Shown in pieces: positions 19,638 to 33,397 of a DNA stretch of 33,402 nucleotides; position 1 is the stretch's first letter; each line of letters opens with the position of its first letter. A program made the position numbers and the translations under genes. This stretch comes from Acidobacteriota bacterium (lineage in GTDB: Bacteria; Acidobacteriota; Vicinamibacteria; Vicinamibacterales; UBA8438): contig JAGWAJ010000013.1 in assembly GCA_021296475.1 (NCBI GenBank), positions 538 to 33,939 of the forward strand, in the 5' to 3' direction. The notes beneath the pieces were generated by a model, which did not search any database, was not told where the DNA came from, and saw only the letters and a program-made list of their open reading frames with translations.

Positions 19638-22307
19638 TCAGGGTGCGCTGTCGGCGCCCAGGCTCAACAGGTTGGCGAGCAGCTCGTAGGCGCCGGTCGT
19701 CCCGGCCGGAAGCTGGCGCCACAACCCCAGCCCCAGGTAGATCCAGCGCCCCTCGCCGGGGTGGGTCTCAACCAACGCGCCGCGCTTCACGCCCGGATTG
19801 AACTCGAACGTGTCCTCGATCTCGACCAGGTCGGCGTAGCGCTCGTCGCGCTCGCCCAGAAAGTACAGACCGCGTTCCTGCACCCAGTCGTCCCACGTCG
19901 CGGGGCCGATCGCGTTCGGCCAGGCGAACACCGGATGGTCGTTGGCGAGGACGGTGACGGGCGCCTGCTCGTCGGTCACCCGGTTGCGGCTGACGACGGC
20001 GGCGTAGGGACCGTACTGCGCCTGGTTGAACTCGAACTTGTTGTACTGCACGACGACCGTCCCGCCGCCCGCGACGTACTCCAGCAACCGGTCGTTGTTC
20101 GCCCGCAGGTCCTCGCGCCGCTCGTACGCCCGCACGCCGGTGACGATGACGTCGAAGCGGTCCAGGTCGCCCCACGCCAGGTCGTCCGGGGTGATGAAGT
20201 CCAGGCGGGCGCCGAGCTGCTCGATCGCCTCGGGCACCGCGTCGCCGACGCCCTCGATGTAGCCGACCGTCAGATCGGGCGCGATGGCCACGTCGATGAC
20301 CTTGAACGTGCCGGACGCGGACCGTCCGATGTGCCGTCGTTCGGTGTGGGCGTACTCCACCACCTGATAGCCGCGCGCGAACTCGCGGCCCGCGAGGTCG
20401 ACGACGGCGCCGACCTCGTACTCGCCCGCCGTACTGCCCGCGGCCGACACGCGGAAGCGCACCGTCCGCGACTCGTCCTCCCGCGAGAACGGAACCGGCA
20501 CCGACGCCGGGGTGACGGTCCACCCGGCCGGGGCCTCGAGGCGTACGCGGCCCTCGACCGGCTCGCGGCCGGTGCTGGTGACCGTGACCCGTACCTCGCG
20601 CGGCGCCTCGGAGCCGGCCGGGATGATCGCGATCTCGGGGGTCATCGAGACCGCGAGCCGCGGCACGACGTGCAGCTCCATTCGCTTCTCGCCGGTGAAG
20701 ATGTCGTCCACGTAGCGGTGCTCGACCGGGCGCTCGACCGTCAGCCGGGTAGTCCCCAGCTCGAGGTCGAAGGCCGCGCGGAAGGGGGTCGGACGGAAAG
20801 CCGCCCCGAACGGCACGTCGGGATCGAAAGCGTAGCGGTCCGCACCCTCGACGTGAGTCCAGTGCACGCCGGTCATCGCGGCGCCGGCGGGTACCGACCC
20901 CGCCAGCGAGCACTCGAAGACGCCGCCGGCCGCGACCGGTCCCGCATCGCAGGCGGCGCCGCCGTCGAAGCCCGCCAGCGCGACGCCGCGCACGGCTACC
21001 GGCGCGTCTCCGCGATTCGCGGCCAGGAGCTCCACCGTCAGGCTCTGCCCGGGCGTGACCACCCCGTCGTCCGCCAGGGCCTCGAGGCGCACGCCGTGAG
21101 CCAGCAGTGCGGCCCGTTCGAACTGGCGCTCCTTCGCCTGCAGTCGGAAGTCGATCTCGCGGCGGGCCGCTTCCGAGAGCCCCATCGCTCCGAAACCGCC
21201 GCGCAGGTCGCGCACGGCCTCGAGCCCGGCCACCACCGAGGCCCGAGCCCCCGCCATGCCTTCCGCGTCGAAGCGGCGAAGCGCCTCGCGGGCATGGGCC
21301 GCGACTGCCGCGAGCGCCCGGGTGAGGCGGGCCGGCGGGTTTGCGCCCGCGAACCGCGCGAGCCCCTCCAGGGACGTGTCCACGCCGTCGAACAGCGAGG
21401 TCTCGCCGACGCTCGTCTGTCCCGGAATGGTGGTGTCGGCCAGCCGGTACTGGGCGCCGACCGCCCCGGCCGGCAGCGCGATGAGCTGCGACATGCCCTG
21501 ACACTTGTGCATGCTCCGGGCTCGGCTCCCGATCTCGGCGTAGGTCGTCCCGAGCAACGGGTCGTAGCGGCCGAGGTCGACCGTCGTCAGCTCGGGGTCC
21601 GGCTCGACGCGGAAGCGGAATCCGGGTGGCAGCAGGCCCAGGCCGAACGGGAATCCGGCTCGGAAGTAGAACTTCTGCGCCTGCCAGGGGTGCAAACCCG
21701 CGGCAATCTGCTCCGGGAAGCGCGCCGGATCGGCCGCGGCACGGAACGCCTCCCGCGCCAGCCGGGCCGATGCCTGGTGGTGCTGGCCGCCGCCACGGCC
21801 CTCCGGTTCCATGGCGGAGATGACGTCGGGCCGGACGGTGCGGATCACCCGCACGATGTCGCCGAGTATCTCCTCGCGCCCCCAGCGGTCGAAGGTCTCC
21901 TCGACGCTGAACGAGAACCCGAAGTCGATGGCCCGCGTGTAGAGCTGCTCCGCGCCGTCGTGCCGATGCGCGGCGCGCAGCTCCTCCGTCCGCAGCACGG
22001 CCAGCGCATCGAACAGCTCGGGGCCGATCTCGTTCTGCCCGCCGTCGCCGCGGGTGGCCGAGAGCAGCACGGTGCGGTGGCCCTCCCCCTTCGCCAACCG
22101 CGCCAGGAGCGCGTTGTTCTCGTCGTCGGGGTGAGCCGTCACCATCAGGAACGTGCCGGCGCTGTTCAACTGCCGCAGCGCCACCCCGAGCTCGACACGC
22201 CCGTCGCCGGCCGCCAACGGCTGCGCACCGGCAAGCGTCGCGCTGACAACCACGCCGGCCAGTGCGACCGGAACCATTCCCACCAACCGGATCAGGAGCT
22301 TGGACAT
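19638..22307 (-). CDS. exported LmbE/PIG-L deacetylase-like protein with NEW3-like and amidotransferase-like domains
   Basis: The 889-residue protein starts at ATG 22307 with a signal peptide (MSKLLIRLVGMVPVALAGVV, cleavage near LAGAQP). A longer frame upstream reaches 22397 but has no signal-like start. The N-terminal domain has the LmbE/PIG-L zinc motif AHPDDE (58-63) and the later His pair GGGQHHQ (about 176), so N-deacetylation of an amino sugar is the likely chemistry. A central region of alternating beta strands (about 560-640, EIAIIPAGSEAPREVRVTVT) looks like an NPCBM-associated NEW3 domain. The last 220 residues resemble a class I glutamine amidotransferase-like fold (FDVIVTGVRAYERREDL, YVAGGGTVVVQYNKFEF) without a clear catalytic Cys. 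It works outside the cytoplasm. It follows the BshA-like gene by 126 bp on the same strand. Confidence 0.8.
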   Translation of the reverse strand: MSKLLIRLVGMVPVALAGVVVSATLAGAQPLAAGDGRVELGVALRQLNSAGTFLMVTAHPDDENNALLARLAKGEGHRTVLLSATRGDGGQNEIGPELFDALAVLRTEELRAAHRHDGAEQLYTRAIDFGFSFSVEETFDRWGREEILGDIVRVIRTVRPDVISAMEPEGRGGGQHHQASARLAREAFRAAADPARFPEQIAAGLHPWQAQKFYFRAGFPFGLGLLPPGFRFRVEPDPELTTVDLGRYDPLLGTTYAEIGSRARSMHKCQGMSQLIALPAGAVGAQYRLADTTIPGQTSVGETSLFDGVDTSLEGLARFAGANPPARLTRALAAVAAHAREALRRFDAEGMAGARASVVAGLEAVRDLRGGFGAMGLSEAARREIDFRLQAKERQFERAALLAHGVRLEALADDGVVTPGQSLTVELLAANRGDAPVAVRGVALAGFDGGAACDAGPVAAGGVFECSLAGSVPAGAAMTGVHWTHVEGADRYAFDPDVPFGAAFRPTPFRAAFDLELGTTRLTVERPVEHRYVDDIFTGEKRMELHVVPRLAVSMTPEIAIIPAGSEAPREVRVTVTSTGREPVEGRVRLEAPAGWTVTPASVPVPFSREDESRTVRFRVSAAGSTAGEYEVGAVVDLAGREFARGYQVVEYAHTERRHIGRSASGTFKVIDVAIAPDLTVGYIEGVGDAVPEAIEQLGARLDFITPDDLAWGDLDRFDVIVTGVRAYERREDLRANNDRLLEYVAGGGTVVVQYNKFEFNQAQYGPYAAVVSRNRVTDEQAPVTVLANDHPVFAWPNAIGPATWDDWVQERGLYFLGERDERYADLVEIEDTFEFNPGVKRGALVETHPGEGRWIYLGLGLWRQLPAGTTGAYELLANLLSLGADSAP

Positions 22308-22433
22308 CGTCCCGCAGTATACCCGCGCGTCCGCACGAACCGGGGAGCGGCGGCGGCCTGTCGCGTGCCCCGCGCCATGTGCACTGGCGCCCACCACGTG
22401 CCGCGGCGCACGGAAAGCGACGACGGCGGCAGG

Positions 22434-23591
22434 TCAGGCGGCAGGACGGGCCGTGCGGGCGAGCACGGCCTCGTAGAAGGCCTCGTAGCGGGGGACGATC
22501 TCCTCCGCGCAGAACTGCTCGTGCACCCGGCGGCAGGCGCCGGCGGCCAGATTGCGGTGGAGCGCGGAGTCGGTCAGCAGCCGCACCGCGCTGTCCGCCA
22601 TCCCGGCGAGGTCGTCGGGGTCGTGCAGGAAACCGGACTCGCCGTCGACGATCACCTCGGGCAGGCCTCCGACCCGCGAGGCCACCACCGGCACCTCGCA
22701 CGCCATCGCCTCGAGGGCCGCGACGCCGAAGCTCTCCTGGGCCGACGGCAGCAGGCACACGTCCGCGATCGAGAGCAGCGGGACAACGAGCTCCTGCTCC
22801 CCCACCGCCTCGACGTCGCCTGCCAGGCCGAGCTCTCCCGCCCGGCGGCAGGCGGGCGCGAGGTCGGGCCCGTCGCCCACCAGCAACAGCCGGGCCGGCA
22901 ACCGCTCCCGGATGCGCCGGAAGATGTCGATCACCGCCTTCGCGCGCTTCACCGGCCGGAAGTTGGAGACGTGGATGACCAGCCGGGCGTCGGGATCGCC
23001 CCGCCGATAGCGCGCGCGCAGCGACTCGTCCACCGAGCGGCGGTGATACTGGCAGTCGAGGAAGTTGGGAATGACCTGGATGCGGGCGCGCACCGGCAGG
23101 TGCCGGTAGGTATCGTCGCGCAGGCTCTCGGACACCGCCGTGACTCCGTCGGAGTGGTCGATCGAGAACGCCGCCGTCTCCAGGTAGGACGGGTCGCTGC
23201 CGATGAGCGTCACGTCGGTGCCGTGGAGGGTCGTGATGACCCGCGGCACCTGTCCGTCGCCCCCCGCAGCCAGGATCTGGCGTGCGAGGTACGCGGCCGT
23301 GGCATGCGGAATCGCATAGTGGGCGTGGATAATGTCGAGCCGGTAGGCCCGCGCCACCTCGACGATCTTGCTGGCCAGCGAGAGCAGGTACTGCGGCTCC
23401 CGAAACAGAGGGTAGCCGGGGGTCTGAACGGCGTGGAACGCGAGGCCGGCCTGGAAGTCGCCGAGCCGGACCGGGGGCTCGCTGCTGATCAGCCGCACCT
23501 CGTGCCCGCGGCGGGCGAGCACCTTGGCGAGTTCCGTGGCGACGATGCCGCTGCCGCCGACCGACGCATAGCAGACGATGCCGACGTTCAT
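22434..23591 (-). CDS. bshA: BshA-like glycosyltransferase (N-acetyl-glucosaminyl L-malate synthase)
   Basis: BshA joins UDP-GlcNAc to L-malate, the first step of bacillithiol synthesis. The 385-residue GT4 protein shows the BshA-specific pattern: GIVCYASVGGSGIVATELA, FHAVQTPGYPLFREPQYLLS, DIIHAHYAIPHATAAYLA, ITTLHGTDVTLIGSDPSY and FSIDHSDGVTAVSESL. The GT-B C-terminal motif follows (PSAQESFGVAALEAMACEVP, the E-x7-E site). It is cytoplasmic and starts at ATG 23591. Typical partners bshB and bshC are not in the window: the LmbE-like neighbour is exported, so it is unlikely to be BshB. A minisatellite lies just upstream. The family match is strong; substrate identity is inferred. Confidence 0.85.
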   Translation of the reverse strand: MNVGIVCYASVGGSGIVATELAKVLARRGHEVRLISSEPPVRLGDFQAGLAFHAVQTPGYPLFREPQYLLSLASKIVEVARAYRLDIIHAHYAIPHATAAYLARQILAAGGDGQVPRVITTLHGTDVTLIGSDPSYLETAAFSIDHSDGVTAVSESLRDDTYRHLPVRARIQVIPNFLDCQYHRRSVDESLRARYRRGDPDARLVIHVSNFRPVKRAKAVIDIFRRIRERLPARLLLVGDGPDLAPACRRAGELGLAGDVEAVGEQELVVPLLSIADVCLLPSAQESFGVAALEAMACEVPVVASRVGGLPEVIVDGESGFLHDPDDLAGMADSAVRLLTDSALHRNLAAGACRRVHEQFCAEEIVPRYEAFYEAVLARTARPAA

Positions 23592-23834: not shown

Positions 23835-24740
23835 CTACGGCGTGACGGTGACGGTCACGTCGTCCGACACGGCCAAGCCGCCGTCGTGCGCCAGCGCGCG
23901 GAGCACGTAGCTGCCCGGCTTGGAGAACGTCGCCTCCACCTCCCACCGGCCGTCCTCGGGGGCTTCCGGAGTGGACCACCCCGGCGACCACGGCGACTCC
24001 TCGCCCTCGCGCGTGTCCTCCCAGACCTTGATCTGGGGCGGATCGAACGTGACGTCGCCGGACCCGCGGTACACGAACCACGACATCCGTAGCCCGGTTG
24101 CGCTGTCGGTGGTGATGCGACCCGGCGAGCGGGGGCTCGTGGGTGCCAGCGGCCGCGCCGTCGGCAGGCCGTCGTCGGTGACGACCGCCCGCAACGTCAG
24201 CGGCTCGCCCGCCGCGACGCTGCGGAACGACTGGCCCTCGACGCTGAGGCCCGGGGGCTCGTTGACCTCCGACTCCGGGGTCGCGCCGGCCGCGCCGGAA
24301 GCGCCGTAGTTGGCCTGCACGACCAGGTCGTTGATGTAGTAGTCGCGCTTCAGCGTCGCGTAGGCCCGCTCGGTCTGCCCGTTGGTCGTCAGGGTCCAGA
24401 TCAGCTCCTTGTCGCCGAAGTCGGCAGGGACGCGAATCCGGAAGACGAACCGGTTGCGCCGCGGGTGAAAGTGCGTCGGCTGTCCCTGATCGGGGCCGCC
24501 GGGCTCGATGCGGTTGTCCGGGCCGACCGGAACGTCGATCGTTTCCTCCCAGTTCCGGTTCATGTAGCCGAACACGAGGTTGAAGGAGCCGTCCTCGTTC
24601 GGCTCCCACCCCTCGTAGGCCGGCGCGATGTTCTGCCCCGTCGCGAACGACTGTTGGGCGTGAGCGGACGGCGCCCCGGCGAGCGCCGCCGCCCCGACGA
24701 AGAGCAATGCCAATGCCGCGCTGCGCACCGTGGTCCTCAC
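23835..24740 (-). CDS. secreted protein of unknown function, partner of the copper/haem oxidase
   Basis: The 301-residue protein begins with a GTG at 24740 and a clear signal peptide (RSAALALLFVGAAALAGAPS, cleavage near AHAQ). The mature part starts NIAPAYEGWEPNEDGSFNLV and contains FGYMNRNWEE and PTHFHPRRNRFVFRIRVP, a beta-rich conserved block I recognise only as a recurrent uncharacterised acidobacterial family. The C-terminal third (GRWEVEATFSKPGSYVLRAL then AHDGGLAVSDDVTVTV) looks like an immunoglobulin-like or PKD-type sandwich. The start overlaps the preceding stop by one base (TAGTG), so it is translationally coupled to the monooxygenase-like protein and probably acts with it in the periplasm or at the surface. 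No enzyme motif is visible. Confidence 0.7.
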   Translation of the reverse strand: MRTTVRSAALALLFVGAAALAGAPSAHAQQSFATGQNIAPAYEGWEPNEDGSFNLVFGYMNRNWEETIDVPVGPDNRIEPGGPDQGQPTHFHPRRNRFVFRIRVPADFGDKELIWTLTTNGQTERAYATLKRDYYINDLVVQANYGASGAAGATPESEVNEPPGLSVEGQSFRSVAAGEPLTLRAVVTDDGLPTARPLAPTSPRSPGRITTDSATGLRMSWFVYRGSGDVTFDPPQIKVWEDTREGEESPWSPGWSTPEAPEDGRWEVEATFSKPGSYVLRALAHDGGLAVSDDVTVTVTP

Positions 24741-26149
24741 TAGTCTTCGTTGTTGTTCGCGTTCGCGGCGTCGTCCGAGGTGCCGCAGGTGATGCAGCCG
24801 ATGTCGCGCCCGCCGGCCGCCATCAACTCCGCCTCGCGCTCGGCGACCTCGGTCGCGAACTCCTCGTCGTCCATGTAGACGGCCTGGATCAGGTTGATGA
24901 ACATGTTGTCAACCGAGCGGTGTCCCGAGCCGGACCAGTTGCGCGGGTCGACCACGTTCGGGTTGGTCGGCGTGTTGTCGAAGTAGCCGGTCAGGTGCAG
25001 GATGGTGCCCTTCGGCAGGAGCGGCGCCGCGTCGTCCTCGTACTTGTAGACCCGCACCCAGTTGTGGTCGTAGCCGGAGCAGTTGAGGGTCTGCACGGTC
25101 GTCCCCCAGACCGCCTCCAGGCACATCCGGACGCCCGGCGCGTGCATGTGCGGCTCGTAGACGCTCAGCTTCGCGTTCTCCGGCAGCGTGAAGTAGGCGT
25201 CCGCGCGCTGATTCGACTCCATCGCCCGGATGTCGAGGTCGGGGCCGTTGCCGAAGAAGAGGAGCTGCATCTCCTTCGTCGGCTCGTAGCCCACCGGGTG
25301 GAACTTGAAGCCGACGTCGAGGTGCGCCGTCGTGTCGATCCCGTTCGCGTGGAGGTGCGTCGAGGGGAAGATGACGACCGAGCCGGCCTTCATCGGAACT
25401 CCCGCCTCCTGATCGAAAACGTCGGCATTGCGCCCCACTTCGTGCACCGGGAGCGTGTACGCCGCGCTCGGGTCCTGCGTGTCCGGGGGCATCAGCGTCG
25501 TCGCCGAATGGTGGACGACGAAGAGGCCGCCGACGGTGTCGGACCGCACGCCGCGCGGCAGGTCGTTGCGCTCCTTGTACTCGATGGCGGCGATGTAGCG
25601 GTCCTCGGTCAGGCCGCTCTCCACCACGCCGAGGGAGCCCCACCAGTCCGGCGCCTCGCCCGGCACCTCGAACGAGGGCGACGAGACGACGAGATCGGGC
25701 TCACCGAGCTCCCACTCGTCCACGTCGATGAACGGCGGCGGCGTCGGCATGTCGGCCGGGTCGCCCTGCGGCGCGCCGTTGTCGGCCCAGCGGGCGATCG
25801 TCGCGATCTCGGCGTCGCTCAGCGACCAGTCGTCCTTGAAATCCTGGATGCCGATGTCCTTCTCGATGTACCAGGGCGGCATCACGCCCATCTGATCGCG
25901 AAGGCCGGTGCGGTACTTGATGGCCCGCGCCCAGGGGCGGACGTCCTCGTAGCTGATGAGCGGCATCGGGGCCAGCGCGTTCGGCCGATGGCACTTCTGG
26001 CAGCTCCGCTGCAGGATCGGGGCGATGTCCTTGCTGAAGGTCGGATGATCGACCGCGGTCTGCGCCGCCGCGGGGGCCGACGCCACCACCAGCGCCGCGA
26101 GGCCGACGAGGCCCGCCAGCCGGCTGAACTTGCGCGTGCTCTCCATCAT
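24740..26149 (-). CDS. secreted cytochrome c / copper type II monooxygenase-like protein
   Basis: The 469-residue protein starts at ATG 26149, since AGAGGA lies nine bases upstream; a longer frame to 26176 lacks this. After the signal peptide (to about residue 29), a cytochrome c-like domain carries C50xxC53H54 (SCQKCHRPN). The larger C-terminal part resembles the bacterial relatives of ascorbate-dependent copper monooxygenases (PHM/DBM). Its histidines are H213-H214 (VVHHSATT), H265/H267 (STHLHANG) and H334/H336 (EPHMHAPGVRM). M416 (VDNMF) is a candidate for the second copper's Met. A Cys pair (GCITC) and an Asn-rich tail close the protein. Together this suggests a periplasmic oxidase or hydroxylase fed electrons by its own haem. 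Its gene is coupled to the next one. Confidence 0.75.
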   Translation of the reverse strand: MMESTRKFSRLAGLVGLAALVVASAPAAAQTAVDHPTFSKDIAPILQRSCQKCHRPNALAPMPLISYEDVRPWARAIKYRTGLRDQMGVMPPWYIEKDIGIQDFKDDWSLSDAEIATIARWADNGAPQGDPADMPTPPPFIDVDEWELGEPDLVVSSPSFEVPGEAPDWWGSLGVVESGLTEDRYIAAIEYKERNDLPRGVRSDTVGGLFVVHHSATTLMPPDTQDPSAAYTLPVHEVGRNADVFDQEAGVPMKAGSVVIFPSTHLHANGIDTTAHLDVGFKFHPVGYEPTKEMQLLFFGNGPDLDIRAMESNQRADAYFTLPENAKLSVYEPHMHAPGVRMCLEAVWGTTVQTLNCSGYDHNWVRVYKYEDDAAPLLPKGTILHLTGYFDNTPTNPNVVDPRNWSGSGHRSVDNMFINLIQAVYMDDEEFATEVAEREAELMAAGGRDIGCITCGTSDDAANANNNED

Positions 26150-26205
26150 GATGCTGAATCCTCTTTGTGCGAACATGGCACACTGCGTGCCGATTCGGTC
26201 CGATC

Positions 26206-26211
26206 ATTCTA
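26206..26211 (-). promoter_or_regulatory. candidate -10 box for the copper/haem oxidase gene
   Basis: TAGAAT on the minus strand lies about 57 nt before the ATG at 26149, in a 59-bp gap after the methyltransferase gene and overlapping its stop region. It would give this operon its own promoter. There is no clear -35. Confidence 0.3.
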
Positions 26212-27033
26212 TCGCAACATCGCGTCGTCGAACGCAAGCCCGAAGCGCGAGGTCCCCTGGGTCGACCCGGCGCGCCCCGGCGGGCGCGCGGACCCCGGGT
26301 TCCCCGCCCGCCGCGACGGAGCCGCGGCCTTGTGGCCGGTGATCACGGTGATCGACCCTTCGCTCCAGACGCAGTCGGAGCGGAAGCCGGCCGCCCGCAT
26401 CGCGGCCAGCTCCTCCTCCACCGGGAAGTAGGTGTCCTCCTCCGCCCACTCCTCGAAGTGCGCGAAGGCCCGCTCCTCGTCGATGCCGCAGGCGACCATG
26501 TGATCGGCCCAGCCGCGCCACGTCGCCGCGCGGGCGTCGGGCTCGGCCGGCAGGGTTGCGTCCGCGTTCACGAAGCACCCTCCCGGCTGCAGCGCATCGT
26601 GGATCCGCCCGTAGAGCGCGCGCTTGTCGTCCATCGACCGGACGTGATGGAGCGCGAGCGACGCGGCAACGCCGTCGCACCGCGGCAGCGGATCGTGAAA
26701 CGACCGGGTGTGGAACCGGGCGCGACCTCCGAAACGCGAAAGCCGGGTGCGGGCCTGCGCCAGCATTTCCGCGTCTACATCGATGAGGGCGACAGACCCG
26801 ACGTCCGGGTGGGCGAGGATGGCCTCCGCCAGCGCCCCGGTTCCGCCGCCGAGGTCGAGGACGAGACCCGCGCCCGGCGAGGCCGTCTCTCCATCGGGCC
26901 ACGCCGCGCCGGCGGCGACCTCGCGCGCCGCAATCTCGATCATCGCCTCGTAGCCCGGAATGAAGCGCCGGATCGTCTCGTCGTAGGCGGCGATCTCGAG
27001 CCGCAGATGGCGGCGGACGGAGTGCGTGGCCAT
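26209..27033 (-). CDS. class I SAM-dependent methyltransferase
   Basis: The 274-residue protein has motif I LVLDLGGGTGALAEAIL, VALIDVDAEMLAQA at strand 2, GVAASLALHHVRSMDDK at the motif IV region and LQPGGCFVNADATLP, a standard small-molecule methyltransferase fold. The ATG at 27033 (MATHSVRRHLRLEIAAYDET) fits the usual N-terminal helix better than longer frames. The last 35 residues are Arg/Gly/Pro-rich and look like an unconserved tail. It lies 22 bp downstream of another methyltransferase gene on the same strand, so the two are co-transcribed. The acceptor is not predictable from sequence. Confidence 0.75.
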   Translation of the reverse strand: MATHSVRRHLRLEIAAYDETIRRFIPGYEAMIEIAAREVAAGAAWPDGETASPGAGLVLDLGGGTGALAEAILAHPDVGSVALIDVDAEMLAQARTRLSRFGGRARFHTRSFHDPLPRCDGVAASLALHHVRSMDDKRALYGRIHDALQPGGCFVNADATLPAEPDARAATWRGWADHMVACGIDEERAFAHFEEWAEEDTYFPVEEELAAMRAAGFRSDCVWSEGSITVITGHKAAAPSRRAGNPGSARPPGRAGSTQGTSRFGLAFDDAMLR

Positions 27034-27055
27034 GCCCTGGAGGTCGGAACCCGCG

Positions 27056-27685
27056 CTACTTCCGGAACACCGCGGCATAGTGGGCGGCCACCGGCCAGTC
27101 GGCGGTCTCGACGTGCGTGAACCCGGCCGCGGCGACCTCCGCGACCACCTGCGCGTCGTCGGTCCAGTGCGGCCAGGCCCGGAGGAAGCCGAAGAGGCCG
27201 CCGAACTCCAGCTCGATGATCGCCAGGCGGCCGCCCGGCTTCAGCGCCGCGTAGAGGCTGGCGTTGGTCGCTGCCGCATCGGTCAGGTGGTGGTAGACGC
27301 GGCGCTGGAAGATCGCATCGCAGCAGTCGGGAGCCAGATTCGTGTCGTGCTCGCCGGCCTCGACCACCGCGACGTTGTCGAGGCCGGCCCCGGCGACCGC
27401 ATCGCGGATGTCGTCACGCCGGGCAGACGAGAGCTCGGTCGCGAGCACGCGGCCGGTCGGCCCCACCGCCCTCGCGACCTCGATGCTCAGCCAGCCGCTG
27501 CCGGCCCCGACGTCGGCCACCGTGTCTCCCGGCTGGAGATCGAGCAGGCGCACGAGCCGGTCCAACTCCGCCTCGCCGCCCCGGCCGGCGAGCAGGAGCA
27601 CCGCCGCCACCAGGCCGGTCACCACCAGGACGACCGCGCCCAACCCGAGGGCAGCCGGGCTCCGCCGATTCTGCGGACGCTGCAT
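27056..27685 (-). CDS. membrane-anchored class I methyltransferase
   Basis: A TM helix near the N-terminus (ALGLGAVVLVVTGLVAAVLL) is followed by a methyltransferase domain. Motif I is DTVADVGAGSGWLSIEVARA, strand 2 RVLATELS, and then come QRRVYHHLTDAAATNASLYA and LKPGGRLAIIELEF. The 209-residue protein is of the type often annotated as an L-isoaspartate or ubiquinone/menaquinone methyltransferase-like protein, but the substrate is unclear. The anchor should keep it at the cytoplasmic face or hold it on the outer side. The ATG at 27685 starts just before the hydrophobic helix. It faces the divergent ankyrin gene across 120 bp that should hold both promoters. Confidence 0.7.
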   Translation of the reverse strand: MQRPQNRRSPAALGLGAVVLVVTGLVAAVLLLAGRGGEAELDRLVRLLDLQPGDTVADVGAGSGWLSIEVARAVGPTGRVLATELSSARRDDIRDAVAGAGLDNVAVVEAGEHDTNLAPDCCDAIFQRRVYHHLTDAAATNASLYAALKPGGRLAIIELEFGGLFGFLRAWPHWTDDAQVVAEVAAAGFTHVETADWPVAAHYAAVFRK

Positions 27686-27805
27686 CCGGCCATTGTGACG
27701 CGGATCGGCGCTCTCCGGTTCCCGGGCCGGGCTCCGCCCCGGCGCCCGCGCTGGCTGGAATCCGACGACGACCGTGCAGTAGGATGCACGCAAGCGAACG
27801 TACAC

Positions 27806-29476
27806 ATGAGAGTAGCTGCCTCGCGCGACCCGGCGGCGTGTCTGCGGGCTCACGCGCACCGCCCAGCGCTCTCGGCGCGCGTCCTGCTCGCCGCGGGTGC
27901 CCTATCACTCGCCGGCGCCGTTCCGGTGGCCGGTGCCGTTCCGGTGGCCGGTGCCACACCGCTCGCCGCCGTCGTCGACAGTGGGTTGGCGGATGCCGCC
28001 GAGCGCCGCGACGTGGGCGCGGTCCAGGCGCTCGTTGCGGCGCAGGCGGACCCCGACGCGCCGCAGGCCGACGGGGCCACGGCCCTGGCGTGGGCGGCGC
28101 ACTGGGACCATCTCGACATCGCCGAGCTGCTGCTGGACGCCGGGGCGGACCCCGACGCGGCGAACGACCTCGGCGTGACTCCGTTGATGCTCGCGAGCGC
28201 CAACGGGAGCGCGGCGATGGTCGAGCGGCTGCTCGGCGCGGGCGCGGATCCGGACACGGCCCGGCCGGCCGGCGAGACCGCGCTCATGATGGCCGCGCGC
28301 GCTGGCGCGGCCGCCGTCGTTCGGCTGCTCATCGCGGCCGGCGCCGACGTCGACCGGTCAACGCGCGGCGGCCACACGGCCCTCATGTGGGCGGCCGGGG
28401 AACGCCACCCGCGGGTCGTCACCCTGCTCGCCGAGGTCGGCGCGGACGTCCACGCGCGCACCCGCATCCGGACCCGGCAGGGGCGCCCCGTCGTGCGGGA
28501 AACGATCGTGCTGAGCCCGTTCGAGGCGGTCAATCCCGCCGGGCTGCCGCGCGACGGAGACCGGGACCCGCCGCGGCCAGAGGGCGGCTTCACGCCGTTG
28601 CTCCACGCGGTGCTGGCCGGCGACCCGGAGGTGGTCGGCGTGCTGCTGGCCGCAGGGGCCGACGTGGACGACGCCGGACCCGACGGCGTCACCGCGCTCA
28701 TGCTGGCGCTCACCAAGCGCCGCACGGCGGTAGCCCACCTGCTGCTCGAACGGGGCGCCGACCCCGACCCCGCCGAGGCGGGCTACACCGCTCTGCACCT
28801 TGCCGCGGCCACCGGACAACCGGCCATCGCCGAGGCGCTCCTGGCGCGCGGCGCCGACCCCGACGCCCGCCTCGAGCGGCCGCAGCGCCTGACGAACGCG
28901 TTCGAGATCGGGGTGTTCACGTCGCCCGGCTCGGGCCGGCTGACCCAGATCGGCTCGACGCCGTTTCTCGTGGCGGCGAAGTCCGCCGACGCCCCGATGA
29001 TGCGCGTTCTGGCCGAGGCGGGCGCCGACCCGCACCGGACGACCGACGACGGGACGACGGCGCTGATGCTGGCCGCCGGCCTCGGCAAGCGGGCGGCGAC
29101 CGACATCACCTACTACGACTGGACGGAGGAGAAGGCGGTCGACGCGCTCGCCGCGGGCCTGGAGCTGGGCCTCGACGTCAACGCGGCCAATGCGCACGGC
29201 GAGACGGCGCTCCACGCCGCCGCCTACCACAACGCGAACCGCGTCATCCGCTTCCTCGTCGACCGGGGCGCGGACCTCGACGCGCAGAACGCGGCCCGGC
29301 AGACCCCGCTGCGGATCGCGGAGGGGCATCTCATCTGCTGCACCACGTTCGTCCGTCACGCCGAGGCCGGAGCCGAGCTTCGTGCGCTCGGGGCCGACCC
29401 GAGTGCCGGCATCCAGTTGACGTTCGGCCTGACCAGCTATGGGGACGAGACCGAGGTGGAGGATCCGCGACCGTGA
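27806..29476 (+). CDS. secreted ankyrin-repeat protein
   Basis: The 556-residue protein starts at ATG 27806. An N-terminal signal-like region (ARVLLAAGALSLAGA, with a duplicated GAVPVA) precedes about twelve ankyrin repeats: the TPLMLA/TALMWA then LLLxAGADPD pattern begins near residue 65 and runs almost to the end. A 40-residue insert between repeats 5 and 6 (RIRTRQGRPVVRETIVLSP) and another near PQRLTNAFEIGVFTSPGSGR break the series. Ankyrin repeats bind other proteins; here the likely partner is the secreted DUF1592/DUF1552 pair that follows. The stop overlaps the next GTG by four bases (GTGA), so the genes are coupled. Confidence 0.85.
   Translation: MRVAASRDPAACLRAHAHRPALSARVLLAAGALSLAGAVPVAGAVPVAGATPLAAVVDSGLADAAERRDVGAVQALVAAQADPDAPQADGATALAWAAHWDHLDIAELLLDAGADPDAANDLGVTPLMLASANGSAAMVERLLGAGADPDTARPAGETALMMAARAGAAAVVRLLIAAGADVDRSTRGGHTALMWAAGERHPRVVTLLAEVGADVHARTRIRTRQGRPVVRETIVLSPFEAVNPAGLPRDGDRDPPRPEGGFTPLLHAVLAGDPEVVGVLLAAGADVDDAGPDGVTALMLALTKRRTAVAHLLLERGADPDPAEAGYTALHLAAATGQPAIAEALLARGADPDARLERPQRLTNAFEIGVFTSPGSGRLTQIGSTPFLVAAKSADAPMMRVLAEAGADPHRTTDDGTTALMLAAGLGKRAATDITYYDWTEEKAVDALAAGLELGLDVNAANAHGETALHAAAYHNANRVIRFLVDRGADLDAQNAARQTPLRIAEGHLICCTTFVRHAEAGAELRALGADPSAGIQLTFGLTSYGDETEVEDPRP
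27917..27952. repeat. 18-bp tandem repeat, two copies, in signal-peptide codons
   Basis: Two perfect copies of GCCGTTCCGGTGGCCGGT encode a repeated AVPVAG in the signal-like region of the ankyrin protein. The period equals that of the two other tandem repeats in this window. Confidence 0.7.
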
Positions 29477-30258
29477 CCCGCTCCCGTCCGGCCCGAGCAA
29501 CGATGGCGAAGCGCGCGATCGGGGTGGCGGGAGCCACCGCCCTTCTCGTCCTGGCCACCGCGTCGCCCGGCTCGGCCGCGTCGCCCGGCTCGGCCGCGTC
29601 GCCCGGCTCGGCTGCGTCGCCCGGCTCGGCCGCGTCGCCCGGCTCGGCCGCGTCGTCCGGCGCTCTCGCGCAGCCCCCTGGCAGCGCCGCGGGCGAGCGG
29701 CGCACGGTCGAAGGCGCGCCGGTTGCGGTCGCGTCGACGCGCGCCCTGCTCGACCGGTACTGCGTCACCTGCCACAACGACCGGCTCCGGACGGCCGGCC
29801 TGACGCTGGCCGGCGTCGACCCGGCGCACGTGGGAGCCGACCCCGCGATCTGGGAGAAGGTGGTCCGCAAGCTCCGCACCGCCACGATGCCGCCCGCCCC
29901 GCGCCCCCGTCCCGACGCGGCAGCCTACGCCGACACCGTCGCCTATCTGTCGGGCGCGCTCGACCGGTACGCGGAAGCCAACCCCGACCCGGGCCGGCCG
30001 GCCGTGCAGCGGCTCAACCGCACGGAGTACGTCAACGCCATCCGCGACCTGCTGGCCCTCGAGGTCGACGGCCGGTCGCTGCTGCCGGCGGACGAGTCGA
30101 GCTACGGCTTCGACAACGTCGGCGACGTGCTCTCCGTCTCCCCCGGCCTACTCGAGCGCTACCTGCTGGCCGCGGCGCGGATCAGCCGGCGCGCCGTCGG
30201 CGACCCGACGCTGCGGCCTATCGGACGTCGCCGCTGCTCTCGCAGGACGACCGCGTGA
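29473..30258 (+). CDS. DUF1587/DUF1592-family cytochrome-like protein, N-terminal part (frameshifted)
   Basis: The GTG at 29473 overlaps the ankyrin stop; ATG 29503 is an alternative. A signal peptide ends in an SPGSAA hexapeptide repeated five times. Then comes a cytochrome c-like motif (DRYCVTCHNDRLRTAGLTLA) and a DUF1587 block (VQRLNRTEYVNAIRDLLALE, ESSYGFDNVGDVLSVSPGLL). The family continues for another 550 residues, but this frame ends at 30258 with an unrelated tail (RPIGRRRCSRRTTA). The expected continuation (YRTSPLLSQDDRV) lies in the next frame from about 30215, so one indel splits the gene. Homologues are secreted and of unknown function, often clustered with DUF1552 proteins. Confidence 0.75.
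   Translation: MTRSRPARATMAKRAIGVAGATALLVLATASPGSAASPGSAASPGSAASPGSAASPGSAASSGALAQPPGSAAGERRTVEGAPVAVASTRALLDRYCVTCHNDRLRTAGLTLAGVDPAHVGADPAIWEKVVRKLRTATMPPAPRPRPDAAAYADTVAYLSGALDRYAEANPDPGRPAVQRLNRTEYVNAIRDLLALEVDGRSLLPADESSYGFDNVGDVLSVSPGLLERYLLAAARISRRAVGDPTLRPIGRRRCSRRTTA
29561..29650. repeat. 18-bp tandem repeat, five copies, coding
   Basis: Five units of CGTCGCCCGGCTCGGCCG (one carries a single T) encode SPGSAA repeats between the signal peptide and the cytochrome-like domain of the preceding CDS. Frame is preserved because the unit is a multiple of three. Confidence 0.9.
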
Positions 30259-32033
30259 GCGACGACCTGCCGTTCGGGTCCCGCGGCGGTCTCGCCGTGC
30301 GCCACCACTTTCCGCTCGACGCGGAGTACGCGATCCGCGTCTCCCTGCGCGGACGCGCCCGGGCGGGCCATGAGCTCGAGGTGCGCCTCGACCGGGCGCG
30401 CGTCGCCCGCTTCGCTCTCGGCTCGCGCGGGCCGCTGGAGGTGCGCGTGCCGATCCGGGCGGGCATGCGGCGCCTCGCCGTCTCGTTCGTCGAGACTCTC
30501 GAGCAGACGCTCCCGGTCGACGGGCGCCCGCCGCCGCCTCCGATTACCAGTTTCGCGTTCACGCTCTACCCGAACGCGCCCTCCGTGGAGCAGGTCGCGG
30601 TGATCGGGCCGTACGAAGGTCAGGCGCCGGCCGACACGCCGAGCCGCGCCGCCGTCTTCACCTGCTTCCCCGACCGGCCGGCGGCCGAGCGGCCCTGCGC
30701 CGCGGACATCCTCGGCAAGCTCGCCCGGCGCGCGTACCGGCGGCCGGTGTCCGAGGCCGACACCGAGCCTCTCCTTGCCGCCTACGCGGCGGGACGGGAG
30801 GCGGGCGGCGGATTCGAGGAGGGCATCCGCTGGGCGCTCGAGGCGCTGCTCGTCTCGCCGAAGTTCCTGTTCCGGGTAGAGCGGGAGCCCGCCGGGACAA
30901 GGCCCGGCATCCCGTACCGCGTCGACGACCTGGACCTCGCCTCGCGACTGTCGTTCTTCCTCTGGAGCAGCATCCCGGACGACGCCCTGCTCGAGGCGGC
31001 GGCGCGCGGAGACCTGCAGGACCGCGAGGGGCTCGGGCGCGAGGTGCGCCGGATGCTCGACGACCCGCGCTCGGACGCGCTCGTCGAGAACTTCGCCGGG
31101 CAGTGGCTCTACCTGCGCAACCTGCGGAGCGTGGCGCCCGACGCCGCCCGGTTCCCGGAGTTCGACGACAACCTGCGGCACGCTCTCCGGCGGGAGACGG
31201 AGCTGTTCTTCGCCAGCCAGCTCCGCGAGGACCGCAGCGTGCACGACCTGCTGCGCGCCGACTACACGTTCGTCAACGAGCGGCTCGCCCGGCACTACGG
31301 CATCCCCAACGTCTACGGCAGCCACTTCCGCCGGGTGACGCACGGCGACGACCGGCGGCCGGGCCTGCTCGGCCACGGCAGCATCCTGACCGTCACCTCG
31401 TACCCGCACCGCACGTCGCCGGTCGTGCGCGGCAAGTGGCTGCTCGAGAACCTGCTCGGCGCTCCGCCGCCCCCGCCGCCGCCCGACATCCCGGAGCTCG
31501 CCGAGGAGGATGGCGCAGCGGAGCGGCCGGCGACGATGCGCGAGCGGATGGCGCAGCACCGCGCGAGCCCGGCCTGCTCGACCTGCCACGCCAAGATCGA
31601 CCCGCTCGGCTTCGCCCTCGAGAACTTCGACGCGGTCGGCCGCTGGCGGACCCACGACGGCGACCCGGCGGCGCCCGCGAACGCGGCGCCCATCGACGCG
31701 TCGGGCGCGTTGCCCGACGGCGTCGGGTTCGACGGTCCGGCCGCGTTCCGGGATGCGCTGCTGGGCGAACCGTGGGCGAGCGAGCTCGCGGCGACGGTCA
31801 CGGAGAAGCTGCTGACCTACGCCCTCGGCCGGGGCCTGGACCATCGCGACGCTCCCGCCGTACGGAAGATCCTGCGGGACGCCGAGCCGGGCGGTTACGG
31901 CTGGTCGTCCCTGATTCTCGGCATCGTCGAGAGCGCCCCGTTCCGGATGCGGATGGCGGCGGCCCCCGACGCTCCCGTCGCTGCGGCGGCCGGTACCGCT
32001 TCCGCAGCGTCCACGAAGGCTGGCTCCCCATGA
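30255..32033 (+). CDS. DUF1592/DUF1588/DUF1585-family protein, C-terminal part (frameshifted)
   Basis: This frame carries the rest of the DUF1592 family protein. After a beta-rich region (SRGGLAVRHHFPLDAEYAIR) come the DUF1595-like CFPDRPAAERPCAADILGKL and the DUF1592 core (LASRLSFFLWSSIPDDALLE, FAGQWLYLRNLRSVAPD). DUF1588 follows (HRTSPVVRGKWLLENLLGAP, ACSTCHAKIDPLGFALENFD, with a second CxxCH), then DUF1585 (TVTEKLLTYALGRGLDHRD to ESAPFRMRM). A GTG at 30255 overlaps the stop of the N-terminal part (GTGA) and could reinitiate. However, homologous sequence extends upstream of it in frame, so a frameshift is the better explanation. Its stop overlaps the DUF1552 start. The haem-like motifs suggest a redox protein. 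Confidence 0.75.
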   Translation: MSDDLPFGSRGGLAVRHHFPLDAEYAIRVSLRGRARAGHELEVRLDRARVARFALGSRGPLEVRVPIRAGMRRLAVSFVETLEQTLPVDGRPPPPPITSFAFTLYPNAPSVEQVAVIGPYEGQAPADTPSRAAVFTCFPDRPAAERPCAADILGKLARRAYRRPVSEADTEPLLAAYAAGREAGGGFEEGIRWALEALLVSPKFLFRVEREPAGTRPGIPYRVDDLDLASRLSFFLWSSIPDDALLEAAARGDLQDREGLGREVRRMLDDPRSDALVENFAGQWLYLRNLRSVAPDAARFPEFDDNLRHALRRETELFFASQLREDRSVHDLLRADYTFVNERLARHYGIPNVYGSHFRRVTHGDDRRPGLLGHGSILTVTSYPHRTSPVVRGKWLLENLLGAPPPPPPPDIPELAEEDGAAERPATMRERMAQHRASPACSTCHAKIDPLGFALENFDAVGRWRTHDGDPAAPANAAPIDASGALPDGVGFDGPAAFRDALLGEPWASELAATVTEKLLTYALGRGLDHRDAPAVRKILRDAEPGGYGWSSLILGIVESAPFRMRMAAAPDAPVAAAAGTASAASTKAGSP

Positions 32034-33397
32034 TGATCACGAACAGGACGCTGCCCCGCCGCACGGTTCTCCGCGGCCTCGGCGCCTCGCTGGCGCTGCC
32101 GTTGCTCGACAGCATGGTGCCGGCGTTCGCCGCCGGCCGCAGCGCGGCGGCGCGCCCGGTGCGGCGATTCGGCGCGGTCTACGTGCCCAACGGGGTGGAG
32201 ATGCGCGCCTGGACGCCGCCGGGGCCCGCGGATGGGATCAGCACGCCGCTGGAGCTCACGTCGGTCCTGGAGCCGCTCGCGCCGGTCAAGGACCAGGTGA
32301 ACATCCTGACCGGCCTCGCCGACAAGGTCGCCATCCCCCGCGAGGGCGAGGGAGTCGGCGACCACGCCCGCGCCGCCTCGACCTGGCTGACCGGCGTGCA
32401 CGTCAAGAAGACGGAGGGCGCGGACATACGGGCCGGCGTCTCGATGGACCAGATCGCGGCGCGCGCGCTCGGGCAGGAGACCCAGCTCGCCTCGCTGGAG
32501 CTGGCAATCGATTCGGTCGAGGTGCTCGGCGCCTGCGACCAGGGCTACAGTTGCGCCTACGCCAACACCGTCGCCTGGCGCACGCCGACCACGCCGCTGC
32601 CGATGGAGAACAACCCGCGCGCGGTGTTCGAGCGGCTCTTCGGCGCCACCGACAGCACGGACGTCAAGGCGCGGCTGGCGCGGCTGCGCCAGGATCGCAG
32701 CATCCTCGACTTCGTCACCGAAGAGGCCCGCGGCCTCCGGGGCACCCTCGGTGCGGGCGACCGGCTCAAGCTGACGCAGTACCTCGACGCCGTCCGGGAC
32801 GTCGAGCGCCGTATCCGGATGGCCGAAGCGCAGAGCGACCGGGAGTTGCCGGTCGTCGAGCAGCCGGTCGGCATTCCGGACACGTTCGAGCAGCACTGCC
32901 GCCTGATGTTCGACCTGCTGCTGCTCGCCTACCAGACCGACCTGACGCGCGTCAGCACGTTCATGTTCGGCCGGGAGGTGAGCGGCCGGTCATTCCCCGA
33001 GATCGGCGTGCCGGGCGGCCACCACGGCTACTCCCACCACCAGAACGATCCCGAGAACCTGGCGATGCTGGCCCGGATCAACACGCACCACATCCGGCAG
33101 CTCGGCTACTTCCTGGAGCGGATGCACGCCACGCCGGACGGCGACGGCTCGCTGCTCGACCACTCCCTGTTCGTGTACGGGTCGGGCATCAGCGACGGCA
33201 ACCTCCACTTCCACCTCGACCTGCCGACGCTGCTGGCCGGCGGGGCGGCCGGCCGCGTCGCCGGCGGGCGGCACCTGCGCTACCCGTCCGACACGCCGCT
33301 CACGAACCTGCACGTCGCCGTGCTCGACAAGCTGGGCCTGCCCGTCGAGCGCTTCGGCGACAGCACGGGAACGCTGGGGTACCTGTCGGAGGTGTAG
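32030..33397 (+). CDS. Tat-exported DUF1552 family protein
   Basis: The 455-residue protein starts at ATG 32030 (or 32033) inside the preceding stop (ATGA). Its N-terminus is a Tat signal: TLPRRTVLRGLGASLALPLL. The rest follows the DUF1552 pattern: FGAVYVPNGVEMRAWTPPG, DQVNILTGLADK, HARAASTWLTGVH, a helical middle (LTQYLDAVRDVERRIRMAEA), SFPEIGVPGGHHGYSHHQND and LFVYGSGISDGNLHFHLDLP. The fold is distantly sulfatase/phosphatase-like in appearance, but no catalytic role is established. Proteins of this family regularly follow a DUF1592 protein, and here both are coupled to the secreted ankyrin protein. The gene ends five bases before the window edge. Confidence 0.85.
   Translation: MMITNRTLPRRTVLRGLGASLALPLLDSMVPAFAAGRSAAARPVRRFGAVYVPNGVEMRAWTPPGPADGISTPLELTSVLEPLAPVKDQVNILTGLADKVAIPREGEGVGDHARAASTWLTGVHVKKTEGADIRAGVSMDQIAARALGQETQLASLELAIDSVEVLGACDQGYSCAYANTVAWRTPTTPLPMENNPRAVFERLFGATDSTDVKARLARLRQDRSILDFVTEEARGLRGTLGAGDRLKLTQYLDAVRDVERRIRMAEAQSDRELPVVEQPVGIPDTFEQHCRLMFDLLLLAYQTDLTRVSTFMFGREVSGRSFPEIGVPGGHHGYSHHQNDPENLAMLARINTHHIRQLGYFLERMHATPDGDGSLLDHSLFVYGSGISDGNLHFHLDLPTLLAGGAAGRVAGGRHLRYPSDTPLTNLHVAVLDKLGLPVERFGDSTGTLGYLSEV

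Follow-up and report, generated by a model that had tools for sequence, protein, structure and literature searches.

In the window, the whole stretch of 33,402 nucleotides analysed here (part of contig C44 of genome G000, an incomplete assembly of 3.17 Mb in 160 contigs), two adjacent genes encode an exported enzyme, in which a predicted c-type cytochrome is fused to a dicopper domain of PHM/DBH fold, and an exported partner with two Ig-like β-sandwich domains. We consider it probable that the two proteins constitute a periplasmic copper monooxygenase fed with electrons through its haem, together with a dedicated partner. As far as a literature search shows, the enzyme and its partner are undescribed, since it returned no bacterial cytochrome-PHM fusion within its reach, which ended short of most subscription journals.

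Organization of the gene pair

An earlier note on this DNA had reported two genes for secreted proteins, coupled by one base, and both genes are indeed present in this arrangement. The enzyme starts from the ATG at 26149, with an alternative in-frame ATG possible at 26176, and its TAG stop shares one base with the GTG start of the partner. The signal peptides of both proteins, as read from the sequence, are of the typical Sec type. The features of the pair and its flanks are as follows.

24740..26149 (-): enzyme gene, 469 aa, exported cytochrome c plus PHM/DBH-fold dicopper domain
26060..26149 (-): predicted Sec signal peptide of the enzyme, residues 1-30 (...APAAAQ), by eye
25988..26002 (-): haem-c attachment motif C50-x-x-C53-H54, invariant in 77/77 copies from four genomes
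25880..25882 (-): Met90 (MPP motif), likely distal haem ligand, invariant in 77/77 copies
25508..25513 (-): His213-His214, CuH ligands, from ligand alignments
25355..25357 (-): His265, third CuH ligand, from ligand alignments
25142..25150 (-): His334-Met-His336, CuM ligands, from ligand alignments
24902..24904 (-): Met416 (D-x-M motif, 'DNMF'), CuM thioether ligand, from ligand alignments
23835..24740 (-): partner gene, 301 aa, exported, two β-sandwich domains
24654..24740 (-): predicted signal peptide of the partner, residues 1-29 (...APSAHAQ), by eye
24348..24644 (-): N-terminal β-sandwich of the partner, residues 33-131, with conserved EGW, FGYxNRN and DxGQPTxFxPRRN motifs
23838..24266 (-): C-terminal Ig/PKD-like domain of the partner, residues 159-301, from the model and weak PKD matches
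26209-27859 (-): two methyltransferases, flanking the pair
22434-23591 (-): group-1 (GT4) glycosyltransferase, flanking the pair, confirmed by Pfam
27784-33397 (+): ankyrin repeat (read from sequence), PSD4/PSCyt3 (DUF1592/1588) and HXXSHH (DUF1552) genes in a row

Because relatives at 65-91% identity likewise have the two genes adjacent, in almost every genome of the family, a chance origin of the pair can be excluded. A functional link to the ankyrin/PSD4/HXXSHH cluster was considered and rejected, as PSD4 and HXXSHH have 22-40 matches each per genome in the family of the window's genome and their proximity is not significant. On the other side of the pair, the GT4 glycosyltransferase lies beside an apparent PIG-L-type deacetylase, read from the sequence (19638-23591, (-)), and these neighbours may represent a BshA/BshB-like pathway for a low-molecular-weight thiol. 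A search of plasmid records gave no match.

Predicted fold of the enzyme

The enzyme obtained no copper-monooxygenase match when Pfam, NCBIfam and PDB sequences were searched with the window proteins and with profiles built from 22-23 members, and neither the window enzyme nor any of 22 aligned members passes a Pfam Cu-monooxygenase cut-off (PF01082/PF03712). The superfamily link was obtained instead via the model fold and bridging paralogues. The enzyme was modelled by AlphaFold2, template-free, from 56 relatives, with a pLDDT of 81.4 and a pTM of 0.79, parts of the haem domain having a pLDDT of 67-71. Structural similarity search with Foldseek against the PDB revealed that the top 30 matches are all DBH and PHM, with a probability of 1.00. 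The best structural match is human DBH (PDB 4ZEL), with a VIA-align Z of 17.0 over 261 residues at 3.4 Å and a Foldseek E of 2.5e-10, and rat PHM gives a VIA-align Z of 14-16 against the model; PNGase F and viral jelly rolls have a Z of about 7, and the next unrelated fold about 7.6. The match to DBH and PHM covers both β-sandwich domains, corresponding to residues about 149-465 of the model.

Against PF03712, whose cut-off is 23 bits, same-family paralogues that are 28-31% identical to the window enzyme gave scores of 22.2-30.6 bits. The paralogue L185 of the same genome reaches 30.6 bits for Cu2_monoox_C (32.9 in a second search), and its alignment with the window enzyme matched all ligands. 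Thus, by model fold and copper ligands, the enzyme would belong to the PHM/DBH superfamily. The proposal that a CxxCH haem domain is fused to a PHM/DBM-like dicopper domain is borne out by the fold match and by the presence of all ligands together with C50-H54.

Conservation of the haem and copper residues

Ligand conservation, like the model fold, was computed directly. In an alignment of 22 sequences, C50, C53, H54, M62, M90, H213, H214, H265, H334, H336 and M416 are all invariant, and every haem and copper residue is still kept after the addition of three more paralogues with 28-31% identity and a Cu2_monoox_C signal. The survey was extended to 77 distinct copies (78 rows, one copy being seen twice) from genomes G000, G006, G007 and G010, of which 72 possess the full set of haem and copper ligands, Met62 aside. 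The five others comprise four copies without copper ligands and one split by a frame break. At one locus (L232, G006:C35:346000-351800), two copies of the haem-copper enzyme apparently lie within one open frame of 1389 codons.

On the haem side, a Cytochrome_CBB3 match at E<=0.1 was found in 21 of 22 members, the best at 1.1e-5. As the likely distal haem ligand, Met90 is to be preferred over Met62 because it is never replaced, whereas Met62 is Phe in three of the 77 copies. To judge from these residues, the enzyme has the features of a c-type cytochrome, namely CxxCH, a likely distal Met and predicted export.

On the copper side, the ligands follow the order HH, H, HxH, M, the same as in the CuH and CuM sites of PHM. 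We take His213/214 and His265 to be the equivalents of PHM His107/108 and His172, and His334/336 and Met416 those of PHM His242/244 and Met314. The earlier note had listed the motifs HH, HxH and HxH, all of which are present (213-214, 265-267, 334-336); the second His of the middle motif is not conserved, and the conserved sixth ligand, Met416, was absent from that list. In the relatives, only H265 of H265-L-H267 is conserved (HYA, HYS and HYT occur), and a single conserved His at this position fits the lone third CuH ligand of PHM.

The four copper-less copies (L243, L244, L245 and L246, from G010, G006, G000 and G007, respectively) are highly divergent, one per genome, and retain CxxCH and Met90. 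They may be pseudo-enzymes or, alternatively, cytochromes that have put the fold to a new use. As these paralogues are devoid of copper ligands, copper monooxygenase activity cannot be common to the whole family.

Structure of the partner protein

The partner was modelled with a pLDDT of 92.6 as two Ig-like folds, which have generic structural matches only, the best with a Z of 8.4. It has no Pfam or NCBIfam family above cut-off, PKD-like and other domains appearing only below it; weak PKD matches occur in a few relatives, and the sequence and profile searches of Pfam, NCBIfam and the PDB gave nothing useful for it. The partner is therefore, as had been described, β-rich, with Ig-like structure and without a named family in Pfam or NCBIfam. 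A role as a metal or redox protein was rejected, as its invariant positions include neither His nor Cys and it has no cofactor motif. Docking of the enzyme or presentation of substrate would be the simplest reading of its role.

The enzyme and its partner share a joint history

In genomes G000, G006, G007 and G010, 52 of 55 partner matches adjoin an enzyme match, and HMM re-scoring with the fetched DNA found 52 of the 77 enzyme copies to be partner-linked. A scan of named genomes yielded 570 relatives; among the best 80 of these, the partner is adjacent at 75 loci from several phyla, and three of the five unpaired loci end at a contig edge. The neighbourhood survey thus agrees with the idea of a dedicated partner: the two families occur together, rather than mostly apart. 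In 77 pairs, the first partner codon that was matched lies 3-291 bp (median 42 bp) from the enzyme stop, so that the one-base overlap was discarded as a conserved coupling, and the conserved feature is adjacency.

In a maximum-likelihood tree of 72 enzymes with a midpoint root, 52 of the 53 members of one clade (support 100/100) have a partner, compared to none of the 19 enzymes outside it. The enzyme and partner distance matrices are correlated with r = 0.79, a value that partly reflects shared species ancestry, against a maximum of 0.15 in 2000 shuffles, and 34 of 48 pairs have the same nearest neighbour in enzyme and partner. Duplicates within one genome show the same enzyme and partner pattern on the tree; therefore, both genes were duplicated together. 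The pairing, its single origin and the co-radiation are direct results of these computations. The single partner-bearing clade and the correlated distances give the simplest history, in which a single recruitment of the partner preceded the radiation of the pair. Related enzymes outside the clade evidently work without a partner.

Both partners of genome G034 adjoin enzymes. In G030, which has no full enzyme, only the C-terminal half of a partner was found, in a 158-codon frame (L250, G030:C1:1085545-1085952), likely the relic of a lost module.

Family size and taxonomic spread

The enzyme query has 13-33 matches per genome in 28 of 28 searched same-family genomes, including 16 in the window's own, and the partner query 7-43, both counts including split matches. 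The enzyme-partner pair has multiplied to roughly 10-15 versions per genome. A direct orthologue of the window pair exists in nearly all 28 genomes, with identities of about 74-91% for the enzyme and 65-91% for the partner. Among the best 80 of the 570 relatives in named genomes, the records are labelled Acidobacteria/Vicinamibacteria, Gemmatimonadota, Gammaproteobacteria (including Pseudohongiella) and, in a few cases, Acidimicrobiia.

Proposed mechanism and alternative explanations

PHM and DBH hydroxylate their substrate with O2 bound at CuM, while CuH passes an electron; the coppers of the animal enzymes are reduced by ascorbate. We propose that the window enzyme is a periplasmic copper monooxygenase module, in which a cytochrome with a His54/Met90-ligated haem is joined to a PHM/DBH-type domain that holds CuH through H213, H214 and H265 and CuM through H334, H336 and M416. 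Once the enzyme is loaded with its metals, the haem would receive electrons one at a time from a periplasmic donor and pass them on until both coppers are reduced, a role that ascorbate plays in animals, and O2 bound at CuM would then hydroxylate the substrate at a C-H bond. The likely function is accordingly C-H hydroxylation in the periplasm, and the label should be monooxygenase rather than the 'oxidase' of the earlier note. The Ig-like partner would be a dedicated companion, which, on genetic grounds, probably contacts the enzyme, be it to present substrate to it or to keep it in place. The many versions that arose after its single recruitment would presumably act on different substrates.

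The haem is the likely point of electron entry because the cytochrome is conserved together with the copper ligands, and because the Cu2_monoox_C matches in the four genomes, apart from a few that are not cleanly readable, all carry CxxCH. A single haem holds just one of the two electrons that the reaction consumes; an outside donor is therefore required, and the description of the enzyme as a 'self-contained' hydroxylase was too strong. The same shortfall would suit an active copper domain for which the haem is not the donor, but serves O2 or redox sensing or docking to the respiratory chain, with another reductant for the coppers. That a single haem cannot give two electrons in one step, that parts of the haem domain were modelled at a pLDDT of 67-71, and that four paralogues have retained the haem after losing the copper ligands all point in this direction; nevertheless, we regard it as unlikely, for 72 copies, some with as little as about 30% identity, have kept the haem motif along with the copper ligands, and the CxxCH in all cleanly readable Cu2_monoox_C matches fits one working unit.

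It is quite improbable that the enzyme belongs to a split PAM-like system, in which PHM-like α-hydroxylation of an amide-linked carbon is followed by cleavage by an NHL-propeller relative of PAL, yielding amidated or N-dealkylated products. PAL-like NHL propellers do lie beside some paralogue pairs (G000:C158 (L208, 26000-31000), G000:C84 (L201), L096, L098, L125 and L137); the propeller P0003 matches rat PAL (PDB 3fvz) with an E of 2.2e-13 and has 15-26 matches in each of four genomes. However, the best PDB matches of P0003 are other NHL propellers, neither the window nor its contig G000:C44 has a PAL-like gene, and in the near-complete G007 none of 15 paired enzymes has one within 6 kb (0.65 expected). 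A link to PAL-like propellers as a general rule was therefore rejected, as it concerns some paralogues only. Moreover, the carboxylate anchor positions of PHM are occupied by Glu332, Ile418 and Leu420 in the window enzyme. This loss of the anchors would also be compatible with a fold and metal sites used for storing or sensing copper, or for a redox reaction other than hydroxylation of a substrate. We give that explanation very little credence: such functions do not need this ligand spacing, both copper sites including Met416 are kept while the remainder diverges, and the 10-15 distinct versions per genome would better fit substrate diversification. The thioether Met of CuM is needed for catalysis in PHM.

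Altogether, the observation of the earlier note is confirmed and extends further than first seen, and its interpretation is partly supported and largely right in kind, the haem-fed hydroxylation mechanism being offered as a proposal. PHM and DBH are textbook dicopper hydroxylases, mainly known from animals. A bacterial clade with many copies and an electron donor apparently built in as cytochrome c offers an evolutionary comparison for electron entry and copper-to-copper transfer in these enzymes, and it points to a large candidate capacity for periplasmic oxidation in Vicinamibacterales, Gemmatimonadota and marine Gammaproteobacteria. In addition, it draws attention to a nameless partner family, overlooked by annotation pipelines, that has travelled with the enzyme since its recruitment. 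More tentatively, cytochrome-fed PHM/DBH-type hydroxylases might form a large bacterial class spread over several phyla and built as a modular system, every enzyme being matched with an Ig-like specificity subunit of its own. With about 10-15 of its pairs in each genome of one acidobacterial family, such a class would attack many different exported or environmental substrates in the periplasm.

Comparison with known copper monooxygenases

Among the closest counterparts are PF03712 Cu2_monoox_C proteins of the same genomes (for example G000:C73 and L185), which are above or close to the family cut-off and, at 28-31% identity to the window enzyme, share its architecture, CxxCH and all ligands. 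The L185 gene (tree row L231) has no partner gene and falls outside the partner-linked clade.

Similar to rat PHM (PDB 1PHM, 1SDW), the window enzyme has both β-sandwich domains and six copper ligands in the same order. It differs from PHM in its identity of only 12-14%, its N-terminal cytochrome c and its dedicated Ig-like partner. In PHM, Arg240, Asn316 and Tyr318 bind the substrate carboxylate; their counterparts, located by reference to the conserved ligands, are Glu332, two residues before the first His of HxH, and Ile418 and Leu420, two and four residues after Met416. Because these anchors are replaced, peptidylglycine is an unlikely substrate, and the residues at these positions place the enzyme outside PHM sensu stricto. 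It likewise differs from PAM, in which PHM and the PAL lyase are united in one protein or operon, as PAL is neither fused nor adjacent in the window.

Human DBH (PDB 4ZEL) is the best structural match of the model. Compared to DBH, whose N-terminal domain is a DOMON, the window enzyme is bacterial, shares 13% identity and carries an N-terminal cytochrome with a covalent-haem motif.

LPMOs contain one copper and have a fold unrelated to that of PHM and DBH. A c-type cytochrome domain has been found to reduce bacterial copper LPMOs (PMC8981238). In Cellvibrio japonicus, the c-type cytochrome CjX183 of Cbp2D feeds secreted copper monooxygenases, the AA10 LPMOs, much as we propose for the window enzyme; CjX183, however, is a domain of a separate protein (PMC8981238), whereas the cytochrome of the window enzyme is fused to the copper domain that it would serve.
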